Shown: piece by piece, positions 14,109 through 44,023 of the stretch
Numbering within the stretch: position 1 is the first letter of the stretch
Layout: every line of letters begins with the position of its first letter
NCBI GenBank assembly: GCA_009917695.1
Contig: JAACJG010000008.1
Location: 1 to 64,000, forward strand
Direction: 5' to 3'
Length of the DNA stretch: 64,000 nucleotides
Source: Candidatus Rifleibacterium amylolyticum
GTDB taxonomy: Bacteria > Muiribacteriota > Ozemobacteria > Ozemobacterales > Ozemobacteraceae
Notes under the pieces: model-generated
Database searches by the model: none
Seen by the model: only the letters and a program-made list of their open reading frames with translations
Told to the model about the DNA's origin: nothing
Translations under genes and position numbers: made by a program

Positions 14109-15425
14109 TTGGCACTGACTACCGAACTGATGATGCAAGCTGCTTATGCTCTCGGAATCGGCGTTCTGGTCGGACTCGAACGCAGCGTTTTCAACGAACC
14201 GTCATCGCCGCCGACTACGCCGCCTGTAGTTCAAGATGATCCTGCCAATGACAATGCCAATGAAATCAGCGGAGTCAGAACCTACGCGATCTTTTCTCTG
14301 GTAGGCTTCACCGCAGCGATGGCCAATGAAAGCCTGCCTTTTTCCGGCCCGGTAATTCTGGCAGGTCTCATCGGCCTGGTTCTAATGTTGTATCGGCACA
14401 CACTGGTGCGTAATCCTGGTATGACCACAGAAGCTGCAGCAATAGGAACCGCCATTCTCGGCACTCTTTGCCGGTCACACCCGGAAGCGGCTGCCATGCT
14501 GGCAGTAATTCTGACCGGCATTCTCAGCTCGAAGCACATAACACGCGAGACGACAAAAAAGATGCGACGTATCGAAGTCACCGATACGCTTAAATTTCTT
14601 GTGCTGATACTGATCGTTCTGCCACTGCTGCCGAACAGAACGCTCGACCCCTACAATGCAGTGAACCCGGCCAAAGTCGGGCTGCTCGTCGTATTGATCT
14701 CTGGCATCAGCTTTGTCGGCTATTTTCTCACCAGATTTCTCGGTGCGCAAAAGGGGCTTGGCCTGACCGGCCTGCTCGGCGGCCTGACCTCGTCAACAGC
14801 CGTGACCGCCGCCATGGCTGAGGAGTCGGCAAAATCGCCGCGGCTCAAAGCAATCTGCGCATTTTCGACAGTAGTAGCCAATGCCACTTCATTTCTGCGC
14901 GTGCTGGTGATGGTGTTAATCCTCGACCAGGCCCTGGCCCGACAGCTTGCCTGGTCGATCGGCGGCATGGCTATGGTGGCGATAATCGCTTCGGCCTGGC
15001 TGTGGTCACTGGCTTCGCGCGACAAGGTTACTGAAGTAACCGAGCGTGAGGGCCAGGTCAAGCTGAGCAACCCGTTTTCGCTCGGCCCTGCCCTCAAGTT
15101 TGCCGCCTTCTTCGTCGCCATTCTGCTGATTTCGCGTATTGCCCGCGACCAGCTGGGTAACGCCGGCATGTATCTGGCAGCCGCGCTTTCTGGACTTGCC
15201 GATGTCGATGCGATCACCATGTCGGTCGCCGAGCAGACTAAGGCCGGCGGTCTTGCCGGTGGCCCAGGTGTGCTGGCGATAACCATTGCCGTGGTTTCGA
15301 ATGCGGTTGTCAAAGCAGGCATCTCGATGATGACAGGCAGCCGCGAGTTCGGGAAACTGGTCGCGATTTCGCTCGGTCTGGCGGTAATCGTCGGCCTGAT
15401 GCTTGCCTGGCTGGTTCCAGCCTGA
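14109..15425 (+). CDS. MgtC/SapB-type N-terminal plus DUF4010 membrane protein
   Basis: 438 residues with about 12 predicted hydrophobic helices. The N-terminal ~140 residues carry the MgtC/SapB pattern (ALGIGVLVGLERS, GVRTYAIFSLVGF, TEAAAIGTAILGTLC). The remainder is a DUF4010 region (GLTGLLGGLTSSTAVTAAMAE, SGLADVDAITMSVAEQ). The family is of unknown transport function and is often linked to Mg2+ or acid-stress physiology in MgtC relatives. The start is a TTG with GGAAAGG 8 bases upstream. The gene converges with the antiporter gene, 18 bases apart. Confidence 0.85.
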   Translation: MALTTELMMQAAYALGIGVLVGLERSVFNEPSSPPTTPPVVQDDPANDNANEISGVRTYAIFSLVGFTAAMANESLPFSGPVILAGLIGLVLMLYRHTLVRNPGMTTEAAAIGTAILGTLCRSHPEAAAMLAVILTGILSSKHITRETTKKMRRIEVTDTLKFLVLILIVLPLLPNRTLDPYNAVNPAKVGLLVVLISGISFVGYFLTRFLGAQKGLGLTGLLGGLTSSTAVTAAMAEESAKSPRLKAICAFSTVVANATSFLRVLVMVLILDQALARQLAWSIGGMAMVAIIASAWLWSLASRDKVTEVTEREGQVKLSNPFSLGPALKFAAFFVAILLISRIARDQLGNAGMYLAAALSGLADVDAITMSVAEQTKAGGLAGGPGVLAITIAVVSNAVVKAGISMMTGSREFGKLVAISLGLAVIVGLMLAWLVPA

Positions 15426-15443
15426 TCGCAGTTTATATGCCGC

Positions 15444-17060
15444 TCAAGGCGCCAGAACGCCCCATTCACCAACCGCCCGTCTTGCGACTTCGGCGGCAAT
15501 CTGGCGTTCATATTCGATAACCTGCACGCCTTCATGAACGACAGACCGGCCAGAAGCAGCCAACAGCACTATTTTCAGTTCCGGGCGCTGATTTCTGGCT
15601 TCGGCAATCACCTGATCGGCATTCACCTGGTTTGAATCATCGATGATCAGAAGTCTGGCGTTTGCAATGCGAGCAAGACCAAGCATTTCGGCTTTCTCGG
15701 GTTCCCCGAAAATCGCTGAAACGTCCTGCCCGGCCAGGCTCAAAAAGTTCTTGTAAACCGGCTCGATAATCACGCTGAAAATGTTTTGCTGTTTTAGTTC
15801 CTGAGCGAGATAAACACCGATGCTGCCGCCACCGCTGATAACAACGTGGTTTTCGGGGTCGGTGTCGGGCAGATTGAGCGCTTCAACTTCGGTTTCAGGA
15901 AAATATCGCCGCAGCCAGCTGTAAATCGGGCTGGCAAGAGCCGCGATCAGAGGCCCGACCAGCATCGAAACAATAACCACATTCAGCATTACCTGATATT
16001 CGTAATCGTTTATAGCAGAGAGCGCCAGCGCGTTACGGGCAAGAACGAACGCGATCTCAGAAATGGGCACCATACCAAGCATAAGTGCCAGCGGCACGAT
16101 GCGGCGGTAACCGAATCCATGTGCGACCAGCGCCAGAATAAGCCCTTTGCCGCCGGCAAACAAAGCAACCAGCAAAATGGTGATCGCGAGGTTTTCCATT
16201 ATGAACGATGGTGAACAAAGCATGCCGATTGACGCGAAAAACAGCAGCCCAAAAAGGTCGCGCAAAGGCACCATCTCAGACATCGCCTTTTTCCCGAAGG
16301 CAGATTCGCTGAGCACGAGACCGGCAAGAAATGCGCCGTAAGCCGTCGGCAAGCCGAAAAGCGAAGACAGAAAGCCGACGCCGAGACCGATAGAAATGGT
16401 TGCGAGCATGAAGAGTTCCTGCGAACGCAATAATGCGATCAGCTGCAACAGCCATGGAATAAGGCGCACGGCGAACACCCAGATCAAAGCCAGAAAAAGG
16501 GTTGAGCTGGCCAGGGGCAGCAGCATCGCTGAGATGCTGAGATTGCCACGGCTGAGGCTTACCAGCAAAATTAGAATTGGTATCAGCAGAAGATCCTGGG
16601 CAATCGAAACACCCATCATGACGCGACCGGAAAGTGTGCCCTTGAGGTTGCGCGATTTAAGCGTTCACAGTATCAGCGCCGAACTCGATGACACGACTGA
16701 ACCGCCGAACCACAAAGCGGCGAGCAGGTTCCAGTTGAGATACCATGCCGTCGCTGTGCCGTAGGCAAAAGTGATCGCCACCTGAATCGCCGTGCCGATC
16801 ACCGCGATTCGCCAGATTGGCCGCAATTCACGCAATGAGAATTCCATGCCCAGCGAGAAGAGCAGAAGTGAAGCGCCAATATCAGCGAGATGCTCGATAT
16901 TGGCGACCTGCGAAACCGTTATAAAACCGGTATGCGGGCTGGCAAGAATACCAACAAAAATATAGCCGATCACCAGAGGCTGCTTGACGGCGCGTGCCAG
17001 CAGGCCGCCGAACAGCCCGCCAAGAACGATCAAAATCAGGTCAGAAGCTATACCGGACAC
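15444..17060 (-). pseudogene. Kef-type monovalent cation:proton antiporter interrupted by one in-frame TGA
   Basis: Two pieces lie in the same frame and together give a normal CPA2 antiporter of ~538 codons: residues 1-131 (17060-16668) and the rest (16664-15444). They are separated by a single TGA at 16667-16665 after the GGSVVSSSSALIL helix. The frame then continues directly with TLKSRNLKGTLSGRVMMG and VSIAQDLLLIP, so no bases are missing. The N-terminal piece has GLLARAVKQPLVIGYIFVG and LLLFSLGMEFSL; the C-terminal piece ends in an NAD-binding TrkA-N type domain (VVISGGGSIGVYLAQEL). The start is GTG with GAGGA upstream. A C-to-T change in a CGA codon would explain the stop. Reinitiation at the ATG pair after the stop, or a sequence error, is also possible. 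Confidence 0.85.
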
Positions 17061-37749: not shown

Positions 37750-38874
37750 TCATTTTTCTGATTGCGTTTCATCGATCAGGTATTCGGCGGCATCTCGCAC
37801 ATGCAGGGGGCTGAGCATGGCTGCGCCAATCTTGCCTTTCATAGCGGCACCCTTTATTTTTGCGTGAGTTTTGCCGTCGCTGTTCAGGGAAGCGGCTTCG
37901 GAAGCAAGGCGGTTGAACTCGAGAACACTCGCGTCGAAGCGCCGGTAGAACATGTCGATCTGGGTGCTGGCGTGGCAGTTGCGGCAGCTCTGCTGCATGG
38001 CGAGACGCTTATCGCCCCAGTCTTCGCGATGCTCGCTATGAATGGTCGCAAGATGCCACGACAGGCGTTCGCCCGGATTATGGGTCGCCGAGGCGATTCC
38101 GGTAGATGGCGCCAGATGACAGACAAAGCAGTCGGGACGTTTGAGATCTTCGTTTACCGGCTTGAAATCGGACTTATTGAGATCTGTCGCCGCGGCGGTA
38201 AGATGCCAGTCGTTGCCGTGGCGCGATGCCTTCCAGGCTTCGTAAGCCGGGCCGACGTCGCCATGATGGCATTTGCCGCAAGTTTCGGGGCTGCGGGCGC
38301 GGGCCATCGAGTCGTCGTGATGGCCGTGGCAGGCAGCGCAGTTGCCGCGGCTGCCGTCGGTATTTATGCGGCCGATGCCATGATTGGGCCAGGTATTGTC
38401 GAGCGCCTTGCCGCGCTGCATGCGCAGATCGTTGCCGTGACAGATGGCGCAGCTCTGTTCGAACAGCGCCGGGGACTGCGTGCGCAGCGGCACATCGCGA
38501 ATCGTCTCAAAAGCCTCGGCATGGCGCGACTGCGCAAAAGATTCATACTGGGCCGGGTGGCATTCAGCGCAGGTGCGCGGCGATACCGGCAACTGCACGG
38601 AAAAGCTGAAGTGCCCGTTCTTTGCAGCTGTATCTTTCGGATCAGCTTTGTGACATTCGTAGCACCCCACCCCGTTCTTCGCGTGCGAGCTGGTTTCCCA
38701 GGTTTCGACGAGTTTGATCTGCCGGGGCGCATGACAGGCCAGACAGCGTGCGGTTTCATCAGAGGTCTGCGCGGTGGTAGTCGTGATCGACTGCGCCGGC
38801 AGCACCAGCGCCAACGCCAGCAGCAGACACAGGCTGATTATACTTCTAAGCAGATATATCGAGTTTATTCTCAT
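37750..38874 (-). CDS. Octahaem c-type cytochrome, HAO-like
   Basis: About 374 residues with a signal peptide (about 1-28) and eight CxxCH haem sites, at residues 44-48, 71-75, 102-106, 142-146, 179-183, 199-203, 249-253 and 297-301. Their spacing and the segments CAECHPAQYESFAQSRHAEAF and CGKCHHGDVGPAYEAWKASRH resemble the hydroxylamine-oxidoreductase-like multihaem family. It should be periplasmic. The ATG is 4 bases after the nqrF stop and has no clear own site, so it is coupled to the NQR genes. A role as electron acceptor or donor of the NQR complex is inferred. Whether it acts on a nitrogen compound is unknown. Confidence 0.9.
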   Translation of the reverse strand: MRINSIYLLRSIISLCLLLALALVLPAQSITTTTAQTSDETARCLACHAPRQIKLVETWETSSHAKNGVGCYECHKADPKDTAAKNGHFSFSVQLPVSPRTCAECHPAQYESFAQSRHAEAFETIRDVPLRTQSPALFEQSCAICHGNDLRMQRGKALDNTWPNHGIGRINTDGSRGNCAACHGHHDDSMARARSPETCGKCHHGDVGPAYEAWKASRHGNDWHLTAAATDLNKSDFKPVNEDLKRPDCFVCHLAPSTGIASATHNPGERLSWHLATIHSEHREDWGDKRLAMQQSCRNCHASTQIDMFYRRFDASVLEFNRLASEAASLNSDGKTHAKIKGAAMKGKIGAAMLSPLHVRDAAEYLIDETQSEK

Positions 38875-38878
38875 AATT

Positions 38879-39979
38879 TCAGGCAAAGTCGAAAGGGTCA
38901 GTCAGTATTCTATCAGAGGGCAGGCCTTTGGCAACAAGTACTTTTTCAACAGCCTGCATCATCGGGCCCGGGCCGCAGACAAAGGCTGTCGCCATGGCAG
39001 CCAGTTCAATTTCATGTTTTTCGAGCAGCTCATGAATCATGCCGCGGCTGCCTACCCAGCCTTCTTCGAGCATCGGGTTGGAAAGCGCCGGCAGATAGCT
39101 GAAAGCGGCATGCTGGCGCGCCAGCTCGCGAAAGTATTCTTCGCAATAAAGATTTTTGCGACTGCGGGCGCCGTGAAACAGCCATACCGGCTGCGGAAAG
39201 TCGATTTCGCGCAACATTTCAAGCATAGAGCGCAGAGGCGCCAGCCCGACTCCGCCGGCAACCAGAATTATCGGACTTTTAATATGGTCATCATGCAGAA
39301 ACATATCGCCGAACGGGCCGCTGACCTCGATTGTGTCGCCAGGCCGCAGCTGATGCAGATAGCTGCTGACGATGCCGCCAGAAACCCTCTGAATATCTAG
39401 CGAGAAAGTCTTTTTCGCGCTGGCCGGTGATGAGATTGAATACGCGCGCATAACCTTTTCCCAGGGCATCTGGTAGTAGACCTGAACGTATTGCCCCGGG
39501 CTGAAATTCAACTCATCATCGCCTTCAATGCCGAATTCAAGAGTTTTGATATCTTCGGCGACCATACGCGCAGCGGCCAGGCGGGCACAAAAGAGCTTTG
39601 CCGCCAGCAACCCGGCCGGCACCTCGACCTCGATATTCTGACGCACCTTAACCTGGCAGGCGAGGCGCGCCAGCGCCTGAAGCCGCTCGGGCGCGAGCAG
39701 AATCGTTTCCATCGGGGTGACCGAACTGCCGCCGCTGGCGACTTTAACTTCGCAGCGGCCGCAGGTGCCTTTGCCACCGCAGGCGGCCGGAAGATAAATG
39801 CAAGCTTCGGCGAGCGCAGGCAGCAATGCCTGACCGCAGGCTACTTTGCGGGCTTCCTGCTGATTGATCTTCATATCGGCCTCGCCGGTCTGCCGCAGCA
39901 GATGGCCAGAAACCGCAACCAGAGCGCAGAGAATCAGAACGAAAGCATTAACGATAAGTATGACAAGGAGAATCTGCAT
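38879..39979 (-). CDS. nqrF: Na+-translocating NADH:quinone reductase subunit F
   Basis: About 366 residues: an N-terminal membrane helix (1-24), a [2Fe-2S] domain with ACGGKGTCGRCEV and a later Cys in ACQV, an FAD domain (RAYSISSPAS, GGIVSSYLHQL) and an NADH domain (LVAGGVGLAPLRSML, FVCGPGPMM). This is the NADH-oxidising subunit. The start could be the GTG at 39982 or the ATG at 39979; the ATG is preferred because GGAGG is 6 bases away. Its start overlaps the nqrE stop (TGATG). Confidence 0.95.
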   Translation of the reverse strand: MQILLVILIVNAFVLILCALVAVSGHLLRQTGEADMKINQQEARKVACGQALLPALAEACIYLPAACGGKGTCGRCEVKVASGGSSVTPMETILLAPERLQALARLACQVKVRQNIEVEVPAGLLAAKLFCARLAAARMVAEDIKTLEFGIEGDDELNFSPGQYVQVYYQMPWEKVMRAYSISSPASAKKTFSLDIQRVSGGIVSSYLHQLRPGDTIEVSGPFGDMFLHDDHIKSPIILVAGGVGLAPLRSMLEMLREIDFPQPVWLFHGARSRKNLYCEEYFRELARQHAAFSYLPALSNPMLEEGWVGSRGMIHELLEKHEIELAAMATAFVCGPGPMMQAVEKVLVAKGLPSDRILTDPFDFA

Positions 39980-40578
39980 CACAGGCCTCCGCTCATCAGT
40001 TCGCCCAGCCCGGAAAAAGCCAGAGCGATGACAGCGGCCACCAGCATGGTGATGCCGGTCTTACCGAGGTGTGGCGGCACGGCGGCAAAGTCGATACGGC
40101 GACGCAGTGACGCGATGATGCAGATCACCAGGCACCAGCCCATGCCGCTGCCGGCAGCGAAAACAAGCGTCTGCACGAGTGAGTATTCGCGGAGAACCGC
40201 GAACAGGGATACGCCGAGAATCGCGCAATTAACCGTTATCAGTGGCAGAAAAATGCCGAACATTTCGTACATGCTTTGGAAAAACCGGTCGAGAAAGAGT
40301 TCGAGCATCTGCACAGTCGCTGCGATAATCGACACGAAAAACAGCAACTGCAGGTATTCGAGCGCGAGCGGCTGAAGAAGCAGATGGTAGACGGCCCAGT
40401 TGGCAGCTGTGGTGATCAGCATGACGGCGCTGACTGCCACGCCCATGTTGAAAGAGGCCTTGAGATCTGAAGATATCGAGATGAGCGGACAGATGCCCAG
40501 AAAATAATAGAGCGCGACATTTTCGCTGATAACGGCGCTGAACAGCAGAGCAAGCAGCGGGTATTGCAGAGCTTCCAT
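39979..40578 (-). CDS. nqrE: NQR subunit E
   Basis: 199 residues, six membrane helices, typical NqrE/RnfA length. VISENVALYYFLGICPLI with its Cys and the second-half FAAGSGMGWCLVICIIA provide the paired Cys regions that hold the intramembrane iron site in this family. Its start overlaps the nqrD stop by one base. Confidence 0.95.
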   Translation of the reverse strand: MEALQYPLLALLFSAVISENVALYYFLGICPLISISSDLKASFNMGVAVSAVMLITTAANWAVYHLLLQPLALEYLQLLFFVSIIAATVQMLELFLDRFFQSMYEMFGIFLPLITVNCAILGVSLFAVLREYSLVQTLVFAAGSGMGWCLVICIIASLRRRIDFAAVPPHLGKTGITMLVAAVIALAFSGLGELMSGGL

Positions 40579-41180
40579 CAGCTTTGCCTCCTGGTTACTG
40601 CTCTAAGCCAGTTCACAAGTACCAGCAGCGCCGCAAAAACGATAAAGGCGCCTGGCGGAGAATTGAAAACGCGACAGGGAATATAAAAATCAGGAGTTAC
40701 GTTAAGGCCCCAGAGTGTGCCATTACCGAGAAATTCGCGAATAGAAGCGATCGACAGCAGAACGGCGGCATAGCCAAGAGCGACGCCGAGCGCATCGAAG
40801 AAGGCTTCGAGCGGCCGATGCGATGCGGCAAAAGCTTCGAGGCGGCCCATTACCACGCAGTTGGTTACAATCAGCCCGACATAGGGGCCAAGCGCCCGTG
40901 CCACTTCTGGGAACAGCGCGCGCAGCGACTGTTCTATCGCGATGACGACGGTAACGATGATCAGCATGTACGACAGCAAGCGAAAGCGGAACGGAATACG
41001 GTAACGCACAGCGGCAACGACGAGCGAACTGGCAATGGTGGTAACACCTACCATTACCGCCATGAAGAAGGCGTTCTCGACTTTGAGGGTTACGGCCAGA
41101 GTTGAGCAAAGGCCCAAAGCCAGTATAAACACCGGGTTATTCGGGATCAGGCCTTCCCAGAGGATGCGTAAATACTTCAT
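40578..41180 (-). CDS. nqrD: NQR subunit D
   Basis: 200 residues with six membrane helices, NqrD/RnfE family (NPVFILALGLCSTLAVTLKVENA, GLIVTNCVVMGRLEAFA). The Cys residues in GLCSTL and VTNCVV match the positions of the metal ligands in the family. ATGA overlap with nqrC. Confidence 0.95.
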   Translation of the reverse strand: MKYLRILWEGLIPNNPVFILALGLCSTLAVTLKVENAFFMAVMVGVTTIASSLVVAAVRYRIPFRFRLLSYMLIIVTVVIAIEQSLRALFPEVARALGPYVGLIVTNCVVMGRLEAFAASHRPLEAFFDALGVALGYAAVLLSIASIREFLGNGTLWGLNVTPDFYIPCRVFNSPPGAFIVFAALLVLVNWLRAVTRRQS

Positions 41181-41788
41181 GGGCGCACCCCGCGGCTGTC
41201 TGCTACTTCGGCCGGAATTTCGGCAAGCTGGCGTAATGCACGGTTAACCAGAGTTTCGACGGCACGCGAGGTTATCGTCGCGCCCGAAACTGCGTCGAAC
41301 TGGTTGCCGTGTATTCTTATCGCCTTCATTTCGATGCCGTTCGCGGCCTCGAGTTCGTCGAACTGGCTGTAAAAGTCTTCTTCGGCGATACGGTCGCCAA
41401 GCCCGGCGGTTTCGTTCTGTTCGAGCACACGCATGCCTACAATACGGCGATGGGTGCGATCGTAAGCGAACAACAGCGCGATTTCTGCCCACATGCCGGC
41501 GCCACGCGCCTGGCAAAGCCAGAGATCAGAGCGGCTTCGGCTCTGCCAGAACTGAATTCGCCCACGACTGCGTAAAATGAACTGGCGCTCGAATTCTTTG
41601 ATGGCTTCTGCTGGTTCCTGTGGCAGCTCGACCCGGCATATTGCGGCGGCGGCTCTGATTGCGTCAAGACTTTGATCGGCCCGACTGCCGATACCGGCAC
41701 GGGTAAGCAGCAGCAGCACGGCACAGACTGTCGCCAGGCCGAGCATAAATTTGATCTCGATAAAGAAAGAGGGTTGGCGGGCGGTCAT
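41177..41788 (-). CDS. nqrC: NQR subunit C, covalent FMN carrier
   Basis: 203 residues with one N-terminal helix and a periplasmic FMN-binding domain. The flavinylation motif SGATITS is at residues 168-174, with Thr171 the expected FMN attachment site, and the preceding NETAGLGDRI segment is the usual ETPGLG-type loop. It is shorter than the ~255 residues of Vibrio NqrC. An ApbE-type flavin transferase must act on it; none is in the window. Confidence 0.93.
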   Translation of the reverse strand: MTARQPSFFIEIKFMLGLATVCAVLLLLTRAGIGSRADQSLDAIRAAAAICRVELPQEPAEAIKEFERQFILRSRGRIQFWQSRSRSDLWLCQARGAGMWAEIALLFAYDRTHRRIVGMRVLEQNETAGLGDRIAEEDFYSQFDELEAANGIEMKAIRIHGNQFDAVSGATITSRAVETLVNRALRQLAEIPAEVADSRGVRP

Positions 41789-42738
41789 CGAGCACCACCT
41801 TTCTGCCGCAGCAGAAGATCGCAGAGAAGCGGCGAAAGAACCTGCATCAGCAGAAGCGCATAAACTGGCGCCAGCGGATTCACCGATCTGACACTGAAAA
41901 CCAGCAGAAGCGCCGAAAAAACCAGCCCGTAAACAATCTGCTCTGAGTTGCGTTCAGGCAGCGAATGGTAATCGACGACTGCGATCAGCATGAGCGCAGG
42001 CCCGAGACCCAGCAATAAAGGATGCAACGGTGAAAAAGATACCAGACCACCCTTAGCGGCAACAGCCGTAAAACCCGGCACAGCCAGCAGCAGCGTAATG
42101 AACCAGGCACGCCCGCGACCAAAAAACAGTGCCATAACAAGCGCCAGTATAAGAATCAGCAAGGTATAAACGCTGCCCGGCATTGCCGGCAGATCTGCCG
42201 ACATCGAGGCGGCAAGAAGCTTTTCGGTCGAAACGGCTGTGTAGTAGAACCAGAGCGGGCGGGCCGGCGGCACACCGGCGCTCCAGGCGCGGTAGCCGGC
42301 ACCTTCTGGTAATATAGGTTTAGAAGCACTCAGGCTCGCGGTATAGCCGTAGCCAACCAGCATCAGAACTACAGCAACCGCGACCGGGTTGAAAAAATGC
42401 CGGCGAAAGCCGCCAAAACTGGTAATGCTGATAAGATACGCAAGAACGAGAAGCGGCGGTATGATCCATAAAGGCAGGCCAAGCGGGCAGAACAACGGAA
42501 AAAGAAGAAACAGCGACCAGCAGAAGGGTATATCAGCAGCCTTCAAATCAGTGCCTGCCGGCTGTTGCAGCAATGCCACGAACCAGCAGACGACACCGGT
42601 TGCAACGCTCAGGCCGGCGGCAGCAGCGAACTTCTGCCCGAATTTTCCCCAGACAGCAAAATAGAGAGGCAGTATAACCAGCGGCAAAAGCCAGTCTGAC
42701 CCGCCAAAATTGCTCTGACCAACGCTCGGCTTGCTCAT
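41785..42738 (-). CDS. nqrB: NQR subunit B (short form)
   Basis: 317 residues with about nine membrane helices, NqrB/RnfD family (SITSFGGFRRHFFNPVAVA, GLGPALMLIAVVDYHSLPER). It is about 90 residues shorter than Vibrio NqrB, lacking much of the N-terminal part that contacts NqrA. I do not see a clear SGAT-type flavinylation motif. It is the first gene of the operon; nqrA is absent upstream, where a divergent gene begins. Confidence 0.88.
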   Translation of the reverse strand: MSKPSVGQSNFGGSDWLLPLVILPLYFAVWGKFGQKFAAAAGLSVATGVVCWFVALLQQPAGTDLKAADIPFCWSLFLLFPLFCPLGLPLWIIPPLLVLAYLISITSFGGFRRHFFNPVAVAVVLMLVGYGYTASLSASKPILPEGAGYRAWSAGVPPARPLWFYYTAVSTEKLLAASMSADLPAMPGSVYTLLILILALVMALFFGRGRAWFITLLLAVPGFTAVAAKGGLVSFSPLHPLLLGLGPALMLIAVVDYHSLPERNSEQIVYGLVFSALLLVFSVRSVNPLAPVYALLLMQVLSPLLCDLLLRQKGGAR

Positions 42739-42925: not shown

Positions 42926-44023
42926 ATGGCTATTGCTGCGTCTGTGCTTTCACAACGATTCATGCGGGCCAACCGCTTTTCGCAGGCGATCGACGCGTTT
43001 TTCCAGCGCGAGAGCAAAGCGAAACCCAGATCAGGCATCGAAAAGGATCTGCTCGAACTGTCACCGATGAACGAGATGCGCCAGACCATCACCCAGTTCA
43101 GGCAGCAGACTTCGATGCAGGCTGAACTCAACGTCAAGCTCAGCTTCACGACCAGTCAGGTTGCGGAAGGGCCTGAAGGCGACGTCAAGCTTGAGCGCGA
43201 CCTCGATCTGATGCTGCGAATGATCAGCAAGGACGACAAGGAATACGAGACCCTCAAAGCCCGTTACGTCAAGCTGCTCAAAATGGCGAAAGCCGATGTA
43301 TCGGAAGATGGCAGCGAAGCGCGCGTCAATGCGCAGTCGCCAGAGGTAGAAGCTGCCCCGGCCAGTCAGGCGATGCCTGACAATGGTAAGCCAATGACTC
43401 TGGCGCAGATGATTGCAGTGCAGGAACGCCGCACCAGCATGCAGCTCGAGCTCAAGTTCAAACAGACCACAACCGAAGAAGGCCGCACCAGCTTAAGTCT
43501 TGAAGATCTCGGAATAATAAAGGTCGATCCGCTCGTGCTTGATCTTTCAGGCGAAGGCATAAATCTTACCGAAGCCGGCAAAGGTGCGATGTTTGATATT
43601 ACTGCCGATGGCAAGCTCGACAGCACGGCCTGGGTTCGCGGCAACACCGCAATGCTGGTTTATGACAAAAACGGCAACGGGGTTATCGACAACGGCAGCG
43701 AGCTTTTCGGCGACCAGAACGGTGCTGAGCATGGCTTTGCCGAGCTGGCCAAATATGACAGTAACGGCGACAGCAAAATTAACTTTCTTGACCCGGTATT
43801 CAAGGCGCTCAAGCTCTATCGCGACCTCAATGGTGATGGCAAAATTGAGAAAAAAGAATTGCAGACATTACCTGAGCTCGGCATCAAAGCGCTTAACCTC
43901 AATTTCATGCGCGCAAACGCCGACATCGATGGCAACTCTCTGATACTCAACGGCAGTTTCGAGCGCGAAGACGGCTCAACCGGTCAGCTCGCCGACGTTC
44001 TACTCGGTTACCGCAAGGTTTGA
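42926..44023 (+). CDS. Protein with calcium-binding (EF-hand/RTX-associated) C-terminal domain
   Basis: 365 residues. The N-terminal ~190 are helical, charged and without a signal peptide, and contain two similar segments (RQQTSMQAELNVKLSFTT and ERRTSMQLELKFKQTT), an internal duplication. The C-terminal half holds DPLVLDLSGEGINL, DKNGNGVIDNGSELFGDQNG, YDSNGDSKINFLD and RDLNGDGKIEKKEL, which are Ca2+-loop motifs. This module is usually the C-terminal part of very large RTX or hemolysin-type proteins; here it stands almost alone. AAGGAGGAG precedes the ATG. It is divergent from the nqr operon. Function unknown. Confidence 0.85.
   Translation: MAIAASVLSQRFMRANRFSQAIDAFFQRESKAKPRSGIEKDLLELSPMNEMRQTITQFRQQTSMQAELNVKLSFTTSQVAEGPEGDVKLERDLDLMLRMISKDDKEYETLKARYVKLLKMAKADVSEDGSEARVNAQSPEVEAAPASQAMPDNGKPMTLAQMIAVQERRTSMQLELKFKQTTTEEGRTSLSLEDLGIIKVDPLVLDLSGEGINLTEAGKGAMFDITADGKLDSTAWVRGNTAMLVYDKNGNGVIDNGSELFGDQNGAEHGFAELAKYDSNGDSKINFLDPVFKALKLYRDLNGDGKIEKKELQTLPELGIKALNLNFMRANADIDGNSLILNGSFEREDGSTGQLADVLLGYRKV

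Follow-up and report, generated by a model that had tools for sequence, protein, structure and literature searches.

Six consecutive genes on the minus strand of the window analysed here, the full 64,000-nucleotide stretch of Candidatus Rifleibacterium amylolyticum DNA, run from 42738 to 37750 and encode NqrB/RnfD-, NqrC/RnfG-, NqrD/RnfE- and NqrE/RnfA-like subunits, NqrF and an octahaem cytochrome c. We propose that they probably encode a cousin of NQR that lacks the return parts of that complex and that, with its secreted cytochrome, sends electrons from NADH out across the membrane, bypassing the quinone pool. The nqr part occupies 42738 to 38879 in the order B-C-D-E-F, with overlaps of 4, 4, 1 and 4 bases between the adjoining B/C, C/D, D/E and E/F genes, and the likely ATG of the cytochrome gene, at 38874, lies 4 bases past the nqrF stop. 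A sequence-only reading of this DNA had described the same arrangement, with overlaps of 1-4 bases and an eight-haem cytochrome 4 bases further on. The open reading frame (ORF) coordinates and the eight CXXCH motifs agree with it, and the 317-residue ORF of NqrB bears out its remark that this subunit is short. In the labels used below, G numbers denote genomes, L numbers loci and C numbers contigs.

NqrF (38879-39982, 367 residues; Fer2, FAD_binding_6 and NAD_binding_1 domains), the 2Fe-2S/FAD/NADH-binding electron-input subunit, carries the motifs CGGKGTCGRC, RAYSISS, GGVGLAPLRS and CGPGPM, and the iron-sulphur, FAD and NADH motifs were present, when read by strict patterns, in most members of the clade of related NQRs to which the operon belongs. 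The NqrD/RnfE-like (40578-41180; PF02508, Rnf-Nqr, 4.2e-49) and NqrE/RnfA-like (39979-40578; PF02508, 3.1e-43) subunits possess their cluster cysteines, C25 and C108 in the former and C30 and C118 in the latter. Both cysteines of NqrD are conserved in every clade member covering them, as are those of NqrE in all but L094, where C118 is replaced by Thr. This locus (G011:C11, 2847-7345) is a related nqrBCDEF without a cytochrome gene, in which VNTAIL stands for VNCAIL and one cluster cysteine is lost. The NqrC/RnfG-like periplasmic subunit (41177-41788, 203 residues; PF04205, FMN_bind, 2.3e-16), whose nearest solved structures are RnfG and NqrC, has a predicted attachment site for flavin mononucleotide (FMN) at Thr171 in DAVSGATIT (codon at 41276-41278), with the [ST]GAT core present in 20/20 clade proteins.

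The NqrB/RnfD-like membrane subunit (41785-42738; PF03116, NQR2_RnfD_RnfE, 2.5e-14) lacks the flavinylated-threonine motif. In an alignment with canonical B subunits its WSAGVPPARP stands opposite the canonical DAVTxATPL FMN region, and the motif is missing in 19/19 clade members. A 2025 review regards the cofactors carried by the four integral subunits as strictly conserved from NQR to RNF (PMC12174285). Since a phmmer search of NqrB against the PDB gave no match, its fold was examined by means of an AlphaFold2 model (predicted local distance difference test score, pLDDT, 78), which matches NqrB/RnfD of solved NQR and RNF with template modelling scores of up to 0.69 (RnfD) and indicates that the NqrB/RnfD fold is still present. 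Judged by these motifs, the predicted electron path runs unbroken from NADH as far as the FMN that NqrC holds in the periplasm, and is interrupted beyond it.

None of the five NQR-like subunits reached the NCBIfam nqr/rnf cut-offs. The best match of NqrF was TIGR01941 nqrF at 225 bits against a cut-off of 295, NqrE scored about equally with the nqrE and rnfA models, NqrC was nearer rnfG, and NqrB obtained just 23 bits, with rnfD. Since all five fall short in this way, the sequences indicate that the NQR of the operon is a divergent clade and not a plain NQR. In a tree of concatenated D and E subunits the operon clade forms one branch inside NQR (support 100/98). The operon has no RnfB or RnfC, and a complete, separate rnfCDGEAB lies on contig 15 of the same genome.

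As the sequence-only reading had stated, nqrA is absent: searches of the assembled genome (95.6% complete) with PF05896, PF11973 and a profile built from seven NqrA/RnfC-like neighbours found no NqrA. The profile matched most strongly the RnfC proper of the contig 15 rnf operon and, in a microcompartment cluster, a PduS-like protein. We also weighed whether the RnfC-like protein at C8:211.9 kb could be an NqrA in disguise, but rejected this, as its gene belongs to a microcompartment cluster together with PduL- and PduP-like genes and the protein scores as RnfC/PrdC; the microcompartment-type cluster at L201 (G000:C8:207-219 kb) has PduL-, PduP- and PduS-like genes. Across the 24 genomes of the family there was only one borderline NqrA match, while in the same phylum family f7 has NqrA adjoining its NQR and served as a positive control. 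NqrA contains no cofactor (PMC12174285), so that its absence alone says little. Furthermore, the genome carries a second nqrBCDEF (L015, G000:C23, 700-4723) that also lacks nqrA and has the NqrB FMN motif, as DAVTSATT; this set recurs across the family, flanked by an alpha/beta hydrolase gene upstream and by a gene for a protein of about 157 residues downstream of nqrF. In the D+E tree it forms another branch (100/100), grouping with NQRs that have NqrA, and since the two nqrA-less sets thus fall on separate branches, nqrA was probably lost twice. The loss of nqrA alone does not point to the cytochrome, since the second set shares it, and we therefore dropped it as the key event. In other lineages, NqrA-like proteins encoded beside nqrBCDEF (L100 6728-8119, L101 1005-2351 and further alignment rows) have eight invariant cysteines, arranged as for two [4Fe-4S] clusters, like RnfC, though NqrA is said to be free of cofactors.

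The secreted cytochrome (37750-38874, within an ORF from a TTG at 38886; Cytochrome_C554 and Multi-haem_cyto) belongs to the HAO/octahaem cytochrome c (OCC) family. Its best solved relative is the multihaem protein 4qo5 (1.5e-32), followed by HAO-family and nitrite-reductase entries; its AlphaFold2 model was poor (pLDDT 58). With 4qo5, HAO and epsilon-Hao it shares eight CXXCH in the same order, the WPNHGIGRINTDGS region and conserved extra histidines, those at positions 68, 92, 122, 190, 223 and 269 showing no variation within the clade and almost none among relatives. It differs from them in being shorter, in having lost an Asp-His pair and in being encoded with an NQR rather than with NapC/NrfH or cytochrome b. 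The octahaem relatives from other lineages are about 440-490 residues long and often adjoin a NapC/NrfH-type tetrahaem protein, or a cytochrome b in family f5, and their fetched flanks contained no nqr/rnf membrane cluster. At one f5 locus of the same phylum (L138, 7254-9646), the octahaem cytochrome gene comes right after that for cytochrome b, an alternative quinol-side partner.

Among the longer relatives in the alignment, nearly all have a GPDH-type Asp-His pair following haem 6 (Glu-His in L164); by counting along the alignment, this pair is Asp267-His268 of Nitrosomonas HAO. In all window-type cytochromes GDVG replaces GPDH, so that the pair is lost, and most of the C-terminal region is gone. 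The genus g10 (G016 and G018) has the same NQR clade followed by two long octahaem proteins that possess the pair. In an unrooted cytochrome tree the g10 and window-type groups adjoin, which fits the view that this NQR recruited an octahaem protein once and that the catalytic pair was lost later.

The arrangement is widely kept in the family. The B-C-D-E-F-cytochrome order, whole or cut by contig ends, occurs in ten related loci (L007-L012, L040, L041, L044 and L046; L013 has nqrB and nqrC from the genome of L011), mostly with tight spacing. Since it recurs in relatives whose identity falls to about 30% for NqrB and 57% for NqrD, it is not a matter of chance. In G006, G019, G021 and G022 the parts of the system lie apart, yet they are kept where the assembly permits checking. 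In G006, about 8.5 kb of transporter-type genes lie between nqrC and nqrD (L047, G006:C18, 2230-10795), and all six genes of the system are still there. The NQR clade, identified by strong B matches or by the D/E tree, is present in 20/24 family genomes, and the cytochrome accompanies it in 17 of these 20 against none of the four genomes without the clade (Fisher p 0.003, the relatives not being independent). The comparison was extended to a wider sample of 382 genomes, of which about 340 came from other phyla. No comparable NqrB was found in the latter (best match about 51 bits, against 270-467 for close members within the phylum), the loci looked at there were ordinary NQR or RNF, and the gene order, which recurs across this family of uncultured Riflebacteria, was not seen among them.

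MqnA/MqnD were found among the 24 family genomes only in G009 and G012, both without the NQR clade, and MenD exceeded its cut-off in none of the 24. Strong UbiA matches occurred only in G005, G009 and G012, none of which has the clade, and that of G012 scores as MqnP-like. In G022 a MenD-like match of 173 bits fell short of the cut-off of 244 and was rejected, its neighbours on either side being an aldo-keto reductase gene and a polysaccharide flippase-like gene. No UbiA-family prenyltransferase gene is present in G008 (96% complete, full cluster), and G020 (96% complete) has only a weak fragment of one. Setting aside matches to the octahaem protein itself, NapC/NrfH exceeded its cut-off in the family only in G012. 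By these searches, which covered MqnA/MqnD, MenD and the UbiA family, the known menaquinone genes are missing from the cluster-bearing genomes.

In a normal NQR, electrons return from NqrC to quinone through NqrB, by way of its FMN and its riboflavin. We consider it fairly likely that the product of the operon is a one-way form of this complex that works without quinone and exports electrons from NADH to a cytochrome. NqrF, with its FAD and 2Fe-2S cluster, would oxidise NADH in the cytoplasm, and the electrons would cross the membrane by way of the 2Fe-2S cluster held between NqrD and NqrE and reach, on the periplasmic side, the FMN bound covalently to NqrC. Since the FMN site of NqrB is gone, NqrB would be retained for a structural role or as part of the ion path, and the electrons would leave from NqrC to the octahaem cytochrome, which may relay them to a periplasmic or extracellular acceptor. 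We infer complex assembly, the transfer from NqrC to the cytochrome, ion pumping and the final acceptor from gene content, gene order, conservation and motifs. The sequence-only reading had suggested that the cytochrome replaces the quinone-side module and takes its electrons from NqrC. An exit at NqrC is supported by the clade-wide loss of the NqrB FMN site with the NqrC site kept, by the linkage and co-occurrence across the family, by the lack of known menaquinone genes alongside the cluster, and by the pairing of octahaem relatives elsewhere with quinol dehydrogenases. The argument from the absence of nqrA needed correction, and the cytochrome is not obligatory. A bolder proposal, which we hold tentatively and with slightly more doubt than belief, is that this is half an NQR, quinone-free and with only the outward path from NADH to the periplasmic octahaem cytochrome, and that it may still pump sodium by the outward half-reaction.

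The Na+-NQR of Vibrio cholerae (NqrABCDEF) resembles this system in its NqrF input module, NqrD/NqrE cluster cysteines, FMN-carrying NqrC and NqrB fold; the operon differs in having no NqrA, a short NqrB without the FMN threonine, an additional octahaem cytochrome, subunits scoring below the nqr model cut-offs and no known menaquinone genes in the genomes that bear the cluster. In Methanosarcina acetivorans, too, a multihaem c-type cytochrome, MmcA, is encoded with the pump; it takes electrons from Rnf and acts as a conduit to a membrane carrier and to extracellular acceptors (PMC11024163). MmcA is, however, a heptahaem relative of the OTR family served by a ferredoxin-driven RNF, whereas the cytochrome described here is by its best solved matches of the HAO family and the input is NADH via NqrF. 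The two-subunit Nqr/Rnf-like systems (PMC8238504, PMC11334425) are alike in their proposed one-way flow from NADH to an extracytosolic FMN and in an NqrB-like subunit without a flavinylation site. They consist of a fusion of NqrB with an NAD domain plus an FMN protein, without NqrD/NqrE, whereas the operon keeps the opposite half, NqrF-NqrDE-NqrC, and its NqrB is PF03116 only, with the PF00175 NAD domain on the separate NqrF. Finally, a decahaem cytochrome, DhcA, is co-transcribed with a pump, there RNF and not NQR, in the rnf operon of Desulfovibrio alaskensis.

Several observations weigh against an electron exporter of this kind. DhcA had little effect on fitness under the conditions tested (PMC4215793), and because of this precedent co-transcription is weak evidence. 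The genome has a second nqrA-less nqrBCDEF, and the telling loss is that of the NqrB FMN, not of NqrA. By analogy with the models of the two-subunit systems (PMC11334425), the NqrC flavin may yet be within reach of a site in NqrB for non-covalently bound flavin. The cytochrome is missing from three genomes with the NQR clade (G017, G011 and G013), so that it is not indispensable and another acceptor must be possible. The source genome also has three weak or differently assigned UbiA-family genes, one being a decaprenyl-phosphate phosphoribosyltransferase and two lying far below any quinone model. A trihaem c7-type cytochrome is encoded upstream of nqrB in G017, for which it is a possible other acceptor, and also in G016 and G018 of the genus g10 (L048 6530-6895, L050 5245-5865); at L048 a 12-haem protein is encoded downstream (14974-16032).

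Alternatively, NQR and cytochrome might be co-transcribed and nothing more, with NQR feeding quinone or another membrane carrier and the cytochrome having an independent role. The DhcA precedent, the three genomes without the cytochrome and the unassigned UbiA-family genes of the source genome agree with this, but the clade-wide loss of the NqrB FMN site, the absence of known menaquinone genes and NapC/NrfH, and the retention of the cytochrome even where it is unlinked do not, and we consider it improbable. The cytochrome could instead be a terminal reductase, in which case the operon would serve to reduce nitrite, hydroxylamine or some other small oxidant in the periplasm at the expense of NADH. 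Its HAO/OCC family membership speaks for this, as does g10, and since the two longer octahaem proteins of g10 keep the Asp-His pair, an NQR-fed catalytic octahaem protein is plausible as an earlier state. The window-type cytochromes themselves, however, lack both the pair that nearly all long relatives keep and most of the C-terminal region. As 4qo5 also lacks the His, the loss is compatible with catalysis, and we regard a reductase as rather unlikely. The flow might also run in reverse, the cytochrome gathering electrons from a periplasmic donor and the complex spending an ion gradient to reduce NAD+. In favour are the oxidative role of HAO-family enzymes in nitrifiers and the reversibility, in principle, of RNF/NQR chemistry; against it, NqrF normally oxidises NADH and the Asp-His pair has been lost. 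Furthermore, these bacteria are described as presumably fermentative (PMC7509429), so that surplus NADH is the likelier problem, and reverse flow seems highly improbable. The outward export of electrons from NADH to the cytochrome is the reading we prefer.

NQR moves electrons outward and back over the membrane, and which redox step drives the ions is disputed. If our proposal is true, a natural NQR without the return half would make the ion-driving step directly testable. It would also let fermentative bacteria pass electrons from NADH to periplasmic or extracellular acceptors independently of quinone, and would be a bacterial counterpart of the archaeal Rnf-MmcA made of other parts. The literature searched held no paper treating both Riflebacteria and nqr. 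Upstream of nqrB, the neighbouring gene is divergent, as had been noted from the sequence, and encodes an EF-hand protein (42926-44023, plus strand). Homologues of this neighbour are found on nine related nqr loci, in some of them on the same strand as nqrB.

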